A DNA stretch of 64,000 nucleotides. It comes from Puteibacter caeruleilacunae. Its GTDB lineage: Bacteria; Bacteroidota; Bacteroidia; Bacteroidales; Prolixibacteraceae. The notes under the pieces are model-generated. The model saw only the letters and a program-made list of their open reading frames with translations, was not told the origin of the DNA and made no database searches. A program made the translations under genes and the position numbers. Where the stretch lies: positions 62,001 to 126,000 of the forward strand of contig SJCO01000012.1 of the NCBI GenBank assembly GCA_005217565.1, written 5' to 3'. Within the stretch, counting starts at the first letter, position 1; every line of letters starts with the position of its first letter. This document shows positions 13,829-36,925 of this stretch, piece after piece.

Positions 13829-15268
13829 TTAATCAATATTATCGTGTAGAAAAGAATTATCTTTTCTTATCGTTATATTTTTATCTTTATCCTCAGACAA
13901 CGAATATCGGGACACTTCTTTCGCTTCCTCATTTGGGCCCTTTCGAAATTTTATTCCTTTTCGTTTATACGCAGGAACATTAGCTAAAGCATCAAGAGAT
14001 TCATCTGACGCTTCATAAAAATCCATTTTCAATGAAACAGCTTGTGACTCCGGATTGTCATCAAGACTCTTCTTTTCAGAAGAATTTCCATACAACTTCT
14101 GTACATCATCCTCATATTCTTGCCGAACATCAAATTCAAAAGTTCGTTGGGAATTCGAAGCATCACCTGACGGATTTACCTTTTGTTTTAAAACCTGCTT
14201 GACTGTCGAGAACATCTTTTTCTCCGGATGAACAGGATCCTCTAATGTATGATATGTTTTTTGTTGCTTCTTCTGCGCCATCAACTCTGGAATGCTACTT
14301 GTATTAAAACCTGTCGCAATAATGGTAACATTTATCTCCTCTCCTAATGACTCATCACCACCATTCCCCCAAATCAAATCAGCTCCACAGCCTGCTTTAT
14401 CCTGAATATAATCGGTTATCTGACCGATTTCATCCATTGTAATCTCATCCGTTCCTGAGGTAACATTTAGAAGTATATTTCGAGCACCTGTAATATCGTT
14501 ATTATTCAATAAAGGAGAATTCAATGCTTCTTCCACTGCCTTGATTGCCCGATTCTCTCCACTTGCTTTGGCCGATCCCATTATAGCAACACCACTTTCT
14601 CGCATTACTGTCTCAACATCTGCAAAGTCAACATTTATATAACCATGGACGGTAATTATTTCTGCGATCCCTTTAGCAGCAATAGCAAGTACATTATCTG
14701 CTTTCTCAAAGGCTTCTGATATTTTAAAATCGCCATACATCTCACGAATCCGTTCGTTGTTAATAACAAGAAGCGAATCAACATGCTTTTGCAGCTGTGA
14801 AATTCCTTCCAAAGCCTGACTAATACGGCGTCGTCCTTCATTCCGAAATGGTATAGTCACAATTCCTACAGTAAGAAGCCCTAGATTCCTAGCCTCCTCT
14901 GCTATTACTGGAGCTGCACCAGTACCTGTTCCACCCCCCATTCCTGCAGTAATGAACACCATTTTAGTATTCCTTTCAAGAACCTTACGAATTTCTTCAA
15001 TATTTTCCTTTGCAGCTTCCCGACCAACATCTGGTTTATTTCCCGCTCCTCTTCCTTCTGTCAATGAAGAACCAATGTGTACCCTCAATTTTACCGGACT
15101 GTTTTCCAGAGCCTGAGCATCAGTATTGCAAACCATAAATTGTACATCCTTGATGCCTTGACGACACATGTAGTTTACGGCATTACCACCGCCACCACCA
15201 ACACCAATCACTTTTATGATCGAGTCATTATCCTGTGGCAAATCGAACTTTAACATTGATTCATTCAT
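13829..15268 (-). CDS. ftsZ: cell division protein FtsZ (canonical copy)
   Basis: A 479-residue tubulin-like GTPase that polymerises into the division ring. The ATG at 15268 is preferred to the GTG two codons upstream. GTP-binding loops are GGGGGNAVN (24-32) and GGGTGTG (111-117); the catalytic T7 loop NVDFAD is at 212-217. A long variable linker follows the GTPase core. VPAYKRKG looks like the conserved C-terminal peptide that binds FtsA, and the end NSFLHDNID is typical of Bacteroidota FtsZ. It lies 31 nt downstream of a second, different ftsZ. With its complete tail it is most likely the main division FtsZ. Confidence 0.96.
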   Translation of the reverse strand: MNESMLKFDLPQDNDSIIKVIGVGGGGGNAVNYMCRQGIKDVQFMVCNTDAQALENSPVKLRVHIGSSLTEGRGAGNKPDVGREAAKENIEEIRKVLERNTKMVFITAGMGGGTGTGAAPVIAEEARNLGLLTVGIVTIPFRNEGRRRISQALEGISQLQKHVDSLLVINNERIREMYGDFKISEAFEKADNVLAIAAKGIAEIITVHGYINVDFADVETVMRESGVAIMGSAKASGENRAIKAVEEALNSPLLNNNDITGARNILLNVTSGTDEITMDEIGQITDYIQDKAGCGADLIWGNGGDESLGEEINVTIIATGFNTSSIPELMAQKKQQKTYHTLEDPVHPEKKMFSTVKQVLKQKVNPSGDASNSQRTFEFDVRQEYEDDVQKLYGNSSEKKSLDDNPESQAVSLKMDFYEASDESLDALANVPAYKRKGIKFRKGPNEEAKEVSRYSLSEDKDKNITIRKDNSFLHDNID

Positions 15269-15299
15269 AATCACGATTTTATGTCATTAACTCCGAAAT

Positions 15300-16493
15300 T
15301 TAACTTTCAGTGCCTTCAAATGAGCTATTAAACTGACGAAAAAACCAATTATCAATTAAAGCATCTGACTTGCTCTCAGATGATACTTTCTCGTCTTGCT
15401 TATCTAACTCTTCGGTTACTACTGAATTACTCTCTTCTTTATCATTACCTTTATGTGCTAACTCTTTTTTTTGCTGCAGACTTTCCTGATCCATACCTGT
15501 CAATTTTATTTGATCATGTGTATCGAATCCTGTAATAATAATCGTCACTGCAACTGCATTCTCTAACGATTTATCTGTTCCATTACCCCAGATAATATCC
15601 GCTTTTCGTCCAGCCTTTTCTTGCAATGTATCAATAATCTGGCCTATCTCACTCATGGTGATTTCAGGATCACCGGAAGTGATATTTAGTAAAATATCTT
15701 TCGCTCCACGGATATCAAAATTATCCAATAAAGGAGAACTTATTGCTTCATTAACAGCTTTGAGTGCACGATCCTCCCCAGCCGCCTTACCTGCTCCCAT
15801 AAGGAAGGTACCGCTATCTGCCATCACCGATCTAACATCAGCAAAATCTATATTGATAATCCCATTTAAGGTGATTATTTCAGCAATCCCCTTTACAGCA
15901 GTTTTCAAAATTCCATCAGCTTTTGCAAATGCCTCTGATGCAGGTAAATCTCCATAAATATCATGTAGTTTCTGATTATCTATAACCAGTAAGCTATCAA
16001 CGATCCGCTTTAGTTTATTCACCCCCTCCATGGCCTGTTGATATCGCTTTCGTCCCTCCGACTGGGAAGGAACTGTAACTACTGCAATTGTCAGAATTCC
16101 TTTTTCTTTCGCTAGTTGAGCAATAACAGGAGTTGCACCTGTTCCTGTTCCTCCTCCTAAGCATGCAGTTAAAAATACCATCCAGGTATTTCCCTCCAAG
16201 CCTGCATTTATCTCATCATAACTTTCACGAGCTGCTTGCTCTCCTTTCATCGGCATATTACCAGCACCTCTACCTTCAGTTAATGTTGCTCCTAACTGAA
16301 TCTTCTCCAATACAGGACTTAGACGGAGATCTTGTGCATCAGTATTACAAACAGCAAAATCGACACCTTTCACCCCCTCTCGAAACATGTGATTCACGGC
16401 ATTTCCTCCACCTCCACCGATGCCAATAACTTTGATCGATGAAGTGGTCGCCGGCTCAAATCCAAAACTCAATATATCTCCTGACTTCTTCAT
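15300..16493 (-). CDS. ftsZ: second FtsZ paralogue with shortened, divergent C terminus
   Basis: A 397-residue FtsZ that differs clearly from its neighbour but keeps the active-site elements: GGGGGNAVNHM near residues 26-36, GGGTGTG (113-119), the guanine-binding IDNQKL region and T7 loop NIDFAD (214-219). The linker after the core is only about 50 residues, rich in Lys, Glu and Ser. The C terminus reads DALIDNWFFRQFNSS, with no VPAYKRK-like peptide and no LHDN ending. It follows ftsA after 8 nt. It is intact and probably a GTPase that co-assembles with or modulates the canonical FtsZ. The duplication is seen directly; the role is inference. Confidence 0.93.
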   Translation of the reverse strand: MKKSGDILSFGFEPATTSSIKVIGIGGGGGNAVNHMFREGVKGVDFAVCNTDAQDLRLSPVLEKIQLGATLTEGRGAGNMPMKGEQAARESYDEINAGLEGNTWMVFLTACLGGGTGTGATPVIAQLAKEKGILTIAVVTVPSQSEGRKRYQQAMEGVNKLKRIVDSLLVIDNQKLHDIYGDLPASEAFAKADGILKTAVKGIAEIITLNGIINIDFADVRSVMADSGTFLMGAGKAAGEDRALKAVNEAISSPLLDNFDIRGAKDILLNITSGDPEITMSEIGQIIDTLQEKAGRKADIIWGNGTDKSLENAVAVTIIITGFDTHDQIKLTGMDQESLQQKKELAHKGNDKEESNSVVTEELDKQDEKVSSESKSDALIDNWFFRQFNSSFEGTES

Positions 16494-34640: not shown

Positions 34641-35123
34641 TTAGTCTTCTCTCTTTTCTAACTCTGGATAATCTATTAGATCCGGTACAATATACGCATC
34701 AGGATAATCTCTACGTATATCACTTTTTACTTTTAATGCTTCCGTTTTCGATCTAAAATTACCCACCCGAACTCTCCAGTCAGGAGATTTAAATAATATA
34801 TAAATATCATGTTCAGGATAATTCTTTAAGTAATTAGCTTTTGTTGTCCTTGCACGCTCCCTTGCACCAACTCCTGAAGTTGAAAAAATCTGCAGTCGGT
34901 ACCCATTTATAGCCCCACGTTGTTTATTCTTCTCAATATGTAATTGAACCAAAGAATCAATACGTGCATCCTGAGTAATATTTAATGAGTCAGTCACACC
35001 TTCAACCATAGTATAACCCAAAGAATCTAACTCCTCAACTAGAACCTCCTGTGCCGACACAACATTCATCAATAACACACACCCAACAACAGCAATTAAC
35101 AACTTGTAACTCATACTCTTCAT
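34641..35123 (-). CDS. secreted SPOR-domain protein
   Basis: A 160-residue protein with an N-terminal signal peptide (MKSMSYKLLIAVVGCVLLMNVVSAQ). The last ~85 residues form a SPOR domain (GYRLQIFSTSGVGARERA, then WRVRVGNFRSKTEAL). SPOR domains bind peptidoglycan strands lacking stem peptides, as found at division sites. It is periplasmic and possibly septal. The ATG three codons downstream is an equally good start. It is the gene before purF on the same strand, with only 25 nt between; functional connection is not obvious. Confidence 0.85.
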   Translation of the reverse strand: MKSMSYKLLIAVVGCVLLMNVVSAQEVLVEELDSLGYTMVEGVTDSLNITQDARIDSLVQLHIEKNKQRGAINGYRLQIFSTSGVGARERARTTKANYLKNYPEHDIYILFKSPDWRVRVGNFRSKTEALKVKSDIRRDYPDAYIVPDLIDYPELEKRED

Positions 35124-35166
35124 TTAAGATTCAACAATGCTAATATACTTCAAAAAACAAAAATGT

Positions 35167-35205
35167 CTAATTAAAAATAAAAACGACCGCCCGTAGGCAG
35201 TCGCA
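35167..35205 (-). terminator. terminator of the small cysteine-rich ORF
   Basis: On the minus strand CGACTGCC, loop TACG, then GGCGGTCG form an 8-bp stem followed by TTTTTATTTTT. It starts about 15 nt after the stop of the 42-codon ORF. Confidence 0.75.
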
Positions 35206-35220
35206 TTTTATCTTTCGTAA

Positions 35221-35349
35221 TTATTGCTCACACTTATTCTCACACGAACAGTCACAATCTGTCACCAGCTGCATTATCGCTTTTCTTATCTCCTCCTGAC
35301 TACAATGTCGCCAACCAGAGAAACCAGTATTTATAACTATTCGTTTCAT
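35221..35349 (-). CDS. small cysteine-rich protein of 42 residues
   Basis: A short ORF starts with ATG (complement of 35347-35349) and encodes MKRIVINTGFSGWRHC and then a tail with five further Cys in the last 11 residues (CDCSC and NKC among them). It has no signal peptide. An exact Bacteroidota-type promoter lies 20-47 nt upstream, and an intrinsic terminator lies just downstream, so a dedicated small transcript is strongly suggested. The clustered Cys residues could bind metal or an iron-sulfur centre. I do not recognise the family. It is transcribed away from miaB, with the two promoters about 85 nt apart. Confidence 0.65.
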   Translation of the reverse strand: MKRIVINTGFSGWRHCSQEEIRKAIMQLVTDCDCSCENKCEQ

Positions 35350-35368
35350 GTTTTATATTTTTCGATTA

Positions 35369-35396
35369 CAAAAATAAGAAAATGTCCCACATCAAA
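35369..35396 (-). promoter_or_regulatory. promoter of the small cysteine-rich ORF
   Basis: On the minus strand TTTG (complement of 35393-35396), a 16-nt spacer and an exact TATTTTTG -7 box (complement of 35369-35376). The predicted start of transcription is near 35362. Confidence 0.6.
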
Positions 35397-35480
35397 TACT
35401 TCAAATTCGAATATTAACATCACATTTGCCCATTTGTTAAATCTTTCCCCTTCTATCACTATCACAGCAAACATTATTGA

Positions 35481-35512
35481 TTTGTGAATTCCTTTACCTT
35501 AATGTATTTTTG
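35481..35512 (+). promoter_or_regulatory. promoter of miaB
   Basis: TTTG (35481-35484), a 20-nt spacer and TATTTTTG (35505-35512) match the Bacteroidota promoter exactly. Transcription should begin near 35519, which excludes the upstream in-frame start at 35477 and supports the miaB start at 35549. Confidence 0.7.
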
Positions 35513-35548
35513 CCTTCTAATAAATTATTAAATTTCAATTTTATACAA

Positions 35549-36925
35549 ATGAGCAATAAAGTTAATGGCTCTGATGCTGACTTTAAATCAGCAACTCAGA
35601 CAAAGAAACTCTTTATTGAAACCTATGGCTGCCAAATGAATGTGGCAGACAGTGAGGTGGTTGCCTCTGTGATGGGTGAAAGAGGGTATAGTATTACAAA
35701 AAACATCGATGAAGCAAGTGCTATTTTTGTGAACACATGCTCCATCAGAGAAAATGCAGAACAACGCATCTGGGGACGCCTTAGTCTTTTTAACTCTATC
35801 AAGAAAAAAAAGAAGGACCTTATCGTTGGTATTATTGGCTGTATGGCAGAACGTCTTGCAGATAAACTTCTGGAAGAACCAGTTGTAGATCTGGTTGCTG
35901 GGCCTGATGCTTACCGCGACCTGCCTTACCTGATTGACAAAGCCAATGAAGGTGAAAAGGCTATCAATGTTGAACTTTCTGAAGAAGAAACCTACGATAA
36001 GATTTGCCCGGAGAGACTTGCTCCTGAAGCAATATCTGGTTTCGTATCCATTACCAGAGGATGTAATAATTTCTGTACTTACTGTATTGTCCCTTACACC
36101 AGAGGTAGAGAACGCAGTCGAGATCCGCAAGATATTCTCAACGAGGTGCGCGACCTTCAAGAAAATGATTACAAAGAAGTGACGCTTCTGGGGCAAAATG
36201 TTAATTCATTTAAGTGGTTACCAGAAGGAGAACGTAAACCTGTCCGTTTCCCCGACTTACTGCAACTGGTAGCTGAGAATTTCCCTAATATGCGAATTCG
36301 CTTTACCACATCTCACCCCAAAGACATGTCAAACAGGCTTTTGGAAACGATTGCTTCAAATGAGAATATTTGCAAGCACATTCATCTTCCAATGCAATCA
36401 GGAAATTCCAGAATGCTAAAAGTCATGAATCGCAAGTACGATCGACAGTGGTATATGGATAGAATAAAAGCAATCAAAGAAATTATCCCTGAATGTGGTA
36501 TTTCAACCGATATCATCGCAGGATTCTGCTCTGAAACTGAAGAAGAACATCAGGATACAATTTCGATGATGGAATATGCTGGATATGACATGGCATTTAT
36601 GTTCAAATATTCTGAACGTCCAGGCACTTATGCCCATAAAAAACTTCCTGACGATGTTCCTGAAGATGTAAAAACAAAAAGACTTCAGGAGATCATTGCT
36701 CTTCAGAATAAACTTTCAATGGAAAGTAACCAAAAAGACATTGGTAAAACCTTTGAGGTTTTAGTGGAAGGGATATCGAAGAAATCTGATCAAGAACTAT
36801 ACGGAAGAACATCACAAAACAAGGTCGCTGTATTTCCTAAAAAGAACTTTAAAAAGGGAGATCTTGTGAAAGTAAAAATAACACGTTGTACACAAACAAC
36901 ACTGATAGGAGAAAGTGTTGATTAA
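35549..36925 (+). CDS. miaB: tRNA-2-methylthio-N6-dimethylallyladenosine synthase
   Basis: A 458-residue radical-SAM methylthiotransferase that modifies A37 of tRNAs reading UNN codons. The N-terminal UPF0004 domain has three cluster cysteines (YGCQMN, NTCSIRE, GCMAER). The radical-SAM motif CNNFCTYC follows, then PYTRGRERSR and the C-terminal TRAM domain (GKTFEVLVEG to TLIGESV). The start at 35549 is set by the promoter and by the family N terminus. The AhpD-like gene follows after 12 nt and is probably co-transcribed. Confidence 0.96.
   Translation: MSNKVNGSDADFKSATQTKKLFIETYGCQMNVADSEVVASVMGERGYSITKNIDEASAIFVNTCSIRENAEQRIWGRLSLFNSIKKKKKDLIVGIIGCMAERLADKLLEEPVVDLVAGPDAYRDLPYLIDKANEGEKAINVELSEEETYDKICPERLAPEAISGFVSITRGCNNFCTYCIVPYTRGRERSRDPQDILNEVRDLQENDYKEVTLLGQNVNSFKWLPEGERKPVRFPDLLQLVAENFPNMRIRFTTSHPKDMSNRLLETIASNENICKHIHLPMQSGNSRMLKVMNRKYDRQWYMDRIKAIKEIIPECGISTDIIAGFCSETEEEHQDTISMMEYAGYDMAFMFKYSERPGTYAHKKLPDDVPEDVKTKRLQEIIALQNKLSMESNQKDIGKTFEVLVEGISKKSDQELYGRTSQNKVAVFPKKNFKKGDLVKVKITRCTQTTLIGESVD

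Follow-up and report, generated by a model that had tools for sequence, protein, structure and literature searches.

Orphan small genes abound, and most of them are uncharacterized. Metallothioneins carry many CxC and CxxC motifs along the chain and bind several d10 metal ions. In Bacteroides thetaiotaomicron, Ribo-seq support has been obtained for 7 of 409 predicted small ORFs. The same species has 49 high-confidence intergenic sRNAs, 27 of which are strain-specific, and the published Bacteroidota -7 consensus is TAnnTTTG (PMC7366714). The independent transcripts of F. psychrophilum have a median length of 176 bp (PMC9723704).

Here, we describe a 42-residue, cysteine-rich reading frame of Puteibacter caeruleilacunae. 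It lies in a stretch of 64,000 nucleotides of contig SJCO01000012.1 (positions 62,001 to 126,000), which we refer to as the window and to which coordinates apply unless otherwise stated. The reading that we favor, with moderate confidence, is that of a stand-alone, lineage-restricted orphan small-protein gene.

The Reading Frame and Its Transcription Signals

The frame (MKRIVINTGFSGWRHCSQEEIRKAIMQLVTDCDCSCENKCEQ; 35221..35349, minus strand) lies where the earlier, sequence-only reading of this DNA had placed it and runs from an ATG to a TAA stop; its start is fixed by an in-frame TAA located two codons upstream. The peptide predicted from it has five Cys residues, at positions 16, 32, 34, 36, and 40 (C-x15-C-x-C-x-C-x3-C). 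Four of these fall within the last 11 residues, and the counts given previously, six and five, were each one too high. The product is a predicted peptide of soluble and charge-balanced character; its single-sequence structure prediction was poor (pLDDT 57) and unfit as a query for structure searches. Two further frames were considered and set aside, namely a second 42-residue frame (35346-35474, minus strand) that matches no family and overlaps the promoter of the unit described here, and a longer, TTG-started antisense frame (35224-35487, plus strand) with poor codon usage.

An exact match to the -7 consensus, TATTTTTG, is found at 35369..35376 on the minus strand. It stands 27 nt before the ATG, a spacing that resembles that at the SPOR-domain genes of relatives (often ~24 nt), and a TTTG 16 nt from this box (35393..35396, minus strand) is a possible -33 element. 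The stop codon is followed by an intrinsic terminator, GCGACTGCC-TACG-GGCGGTCGT and then TTTTATTTTT (35173..35204, minus strand), the stem of which (35204..35183) comprises 9 pairs, 6 of them GC, where 8 bp had been counted before, with a 4-nt UACG loop and a T-rich tail. It is the sole terminator-like site within 34800-35700 and, because miaB is divergent, there is no other upstream gene for it to serve in its orientation. The claim of a dedicated promoter and terminator is in this way well supported by sequence signals. Transcription would start some 6-7 nt past the TATTTTTG box and give a monocistronic RNA of about 190 nt (35173..35362, minus strand; 37% GC) with an A-rich leader. Translation from the ATG, ~13 nt into the transcript, would then yield the 42-residue soluble peptide, and the RNA would end at the terminator, 16 nt past the stop codon. 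The frame spans the unit from just after the predicted transcript start to just before the terminator.

It might be argued that the frame is untranscribed and that the signals flanking it are look-alikes brought together by chance. By itself, TATTTTTG is not enriched in the window (9 found against 9.1 expected), an ATG frame of at least 42 residues arises in 35% of shuffles of the miaB-SPOR intergenic stretch, and the frame was originally singled out for its cysteines. The terminator is nevertheless strong, with no other gene to serve, and the combined arrangement of promoter, frame, and terminator is rare. Frames of this length with five or more Cys appear in 1% of the intergenic shuffles. 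When only the stretch from promoter to terminator is shuffled, an ATG frame of at least 42 residues is obtained in 0.64% of cases, a figure that becomes ~5% on correction for the eight units examined. These eight are the intergenic units in 280 kb of the contig that combine TAnnTTTG with a strong terminator: three tRNA units (Met, Gln, and Ala), two copies of rpsT, tatA, one frame without an ATG, and the 42-residue unit. In a scan of 280 kb, the 42-residue unit was the only ATG-started small frame to have both signals, the second match being tRNA-Gln. What stands out is the arrangement, and not the promoter word or the frame length alone, and assembly by chance is accordingly an improbable account.

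Two of these units merit description in their own right. The rpsT copies are tandem genes for ribosomal protein S20, both of which have a promoter and a terminator to themselves, at ~252,880 and ~253,370 of the contig, outside the window. The frame without an ATG, also outside the window (contig ~199,885-200,090), is open from promoter to terminator and is perhaps started by a TTG inside the promoter.

The Setting between miaB and the SPOR Gene

The divergent neighbor (35549..36925, plus strand) is a true miaB, as had been proposed, its product scoring 488 bits for TIGR01574, where the cut-off is 355; a second copy of TATTTTTG, at 35505..35512 on the plus strand, is its candidate promoter. The next gene downstream on the strand of the 42-residue frame encodes a SPOR-domain protein (34641..35123, minus strand; Pfam PF05036). 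In many relatives of the family, TATATTTG recurs ~24 nt before this gene, and in the window that promoter position is kept with one change, as the degenerate copy TATATTAG (35140..35147, minus strand), which lies past the terminator. A scan of the genome contigs with the SPOR protein gave a single distant match.

In 17 of 17 relatives with divergent miaB and SPOR genes, the promoter-frame-terminator unit is absent from between them, and the conserved position beside miaB for which the earlier reading had recommended a check was not found. The gap between the two genes is ~110-370 bp in 14 of these relatives and near or above 1 kb in three, at least two of which hold an inserted gene; it measures 113 bp in the closest relative versus 426 bp here. 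The 42-residue unit is, on this comparison of sequences, an extra module set between two existing promoters, which argues both against a functional tie to miaB and against a role as an attenuator. The latter proposal would make the frame a leader peptide that senses cysteine and controls the downstream SPOR gene and purF, and the order of elements fits such a device, with a short Cys-rich frame, a terminator past its stop codon, and further genes of like orientation beyond. A leader-peptide attenuator would, however, call for a downstream gene without a promoter site to itself. Many relatives, however, have a SPOR gene with its own TATATTTG promoter and no 42-residue unit, and here the retained promoter position, TATATTAG, is downstream of the terminator. 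Neither the SPOR protein gene nor purF is a cysteine gene, and an alternative antiterminator was not identified. We consider attenuation very unlikely.

At some distance in the window, a cell-wall/division cluster includes tandem FtsZ paralogues (13829-15274 and 15300-16493, both minus strand) that are 60% identical over 296 residues.

Distribution among Genomes

Searches with tblastn returned no homologue of the peptide from its own genome besides itself, nor from sets of 140 family, 393 order, and 395 phylum genomes, which represent ~900 distinct genomes because the sets overlap a little; phages, plasmids, and viral contigs likewise contained none. The peptide is also without a match in Pfam (even at E 10), NCBIfam, PHROGs, PADLOC, and the PDB. 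The search was sensitive enough to make this meaningful, since a control query, a 42-residue piece of the SPOR protein, picked up its counterpart in 54 of 60 family genomes at identities as low as ~32%. The conserved frame and Cys residues that the earlier reading had proposed to seek in Bacteroidota did not appear in the family, order, and phylum sets. With no homologue among these genomes, conservation of the frame cannot be judged. The genus is represented among them by this member only, and the peptide could therefore exist in unsampled sister species.

Weak tblastn matches came up in the own genome and in the family, order, and phylum sets and were rejected. Most fell in a different frame or within a larger gene, and there were about as many of them as the E-values predict. 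One of them, in an order relative (L044), proved to be part of a thiol-peroxidase-like frame; that frame bears, at ~1501-1602, a Cys-rich insertion, DCDCSCTDVCDCSG. At the DNA level, one family contig (G000:C151) and 25 further genomes of the family showed similarity, confined almost wholly to the AT-rich leader.

The unit, found in this genome alone among those searched, is probably young. Its absence from relatives leads us to suggest that the gene arose by recent insertion or by de novo birth between the miaB and SPOR promoters.

Small Protein or Small RNA

The main rival to an orphan small-protein gene is an intergenic sRNA of ~190 nt that has a promoter and an intrinsic terminator to itself, acts by base pairing, and contains the frame by accident; the TGT-rich stretch encoding the Cys cluster would then form the 3' strand of a 14-bp stem. 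Judged by its signals, the unit has the features by which intergenic sRNAs are recognized (own promoter, intrinsic terminator, short transcript), and these, together with its length, match those of the Bacteroidota. The predicted fold of the transcript is a hairpin plus a separate terminator, not a single long rod, with z = -5.0 when the terminator is included and -2.35 for the body without it; 5.7% of gene segments fold at least as well as the latter. Part of the TGT-rich stretch pairs in this fold with the codons for residues 3-6, and part of the Cys cluster could for that reason be a by-product of RNA structure.

Codon usage is also not gene-like. The synonymous codon score of the frame is -0.014, compared with 0.040 (S.D. 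0.051) for gene segments and -0.028 (S.D. 0.055) for intergenic frames, and it sits between the two distributions, nearer that of non-genes, in what is a weak test at 42 codons. GC content by codon position is flat (0.42/0.40/0.37, versus 0.49/0.34/0.32 in genes), and each of the four Ile residues is encoded by ATA, a codon that accounts for 19% of Ile codons in genes. Neither codon usage nor codon-position GC lends support to coding.

Set against the sRNA are the rarity, in shuffled units, of a frame running end to end and the outcome of the RNA searches. All Rfam families scored below threshold at the site, and a covariance model built from the one sequence found no convincing relative in the set of 140 family genomes, where the best match was a partial one (E 0.06). 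Matches to L20_leader and Prevotella-2 were weak, far under their gathering cut-offs, and were rejected. The 6S families were absent at the site among covariance matches up to E 10, and these models may miss the 6S RNA of this genome, as RF00013 and RF01685 match nowhere in it. The composition of the eight units in 280 kb suggests that, tRNAs aside, units of this kind here mostly encode small proteins. Taken together with the 0.64% shuffle figure, it makes a small mRNA likelier than a non-coding RNA, and we regard the sRNA as a serious but distinctly less probable alternative.

The proposal that the unit encodes a protein has fared unevenly: the frame fills the unit far better than chance would have it, and the A-rich leader and the distance from promoter to ATG also favor coding, but its codons resemble those of intergenic frames. 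Weighing the evidence by judgement and without a formal model, we think it somewhat probable that 35221-35349 is a small-protein gene.

Possible Function

The iron-sulfur or metal-related role that had been suggested for the peptide from its adjacency to miaB is not supported. The link is one of position, and the 17 relatives with divergent miaB and SPOR genes lack the unit. The frame contains no CxxC, CxxxCxxC, or CxxCxxC motif, and Pfam and NCBIfam offer no Fe-S family match. No visible functional link connects the gene to either miaB or the SPOR gene. In the part of the window covered by Pfam, the proteins around the frame are housekeeping proteins, with no modification or export enzymes among them that would point to a RiPP precursor. 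Our guess, held with low confidence, is a cytosolic protein in which the C-terminal CxCxC-x3-C cluster may bind a soft metal ion or take part in redox or disulfide exchange. A novel Cys-rich protein, born de novo and active toward metals or in redox chemistry, or else an RNA of dual function, pairing with targets while also encoding the peptide, would be of greater novelty and is unlikely.

Understanding of MiaB or of Fe-S biology is unchanged by this unit. Its sharp borders, and its status as an extra unit between existing promoters, make it a clean test case for recent origin and for coding status.

Comparison with Known Systems

With metallothionein-like, Cys-rich small proteins, the peptide shares a CxCxC cluster in a short soluble chain. 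It differs from them in having only five Cys residues and that single cluster, no Pfam match, and no metal-responsive context. It resembles lineage-restricted (orphan) bacterial small ORFs that have their own promoter and terminator in that it is under 50 residues, occupies a single-gene unit, and has no detectable homologue; it is set apart by its five Cys residues, four of them clustered C-terminally. Bacteroides intergenic sRNAs such as GibS resemble it in their Sigma-ABfr-type promoter, intrinsic terminator, and short transcript, and in often being strain-specific (PMC7366714). The 42-residue unit departs from them in that one frame fills it from end to end.
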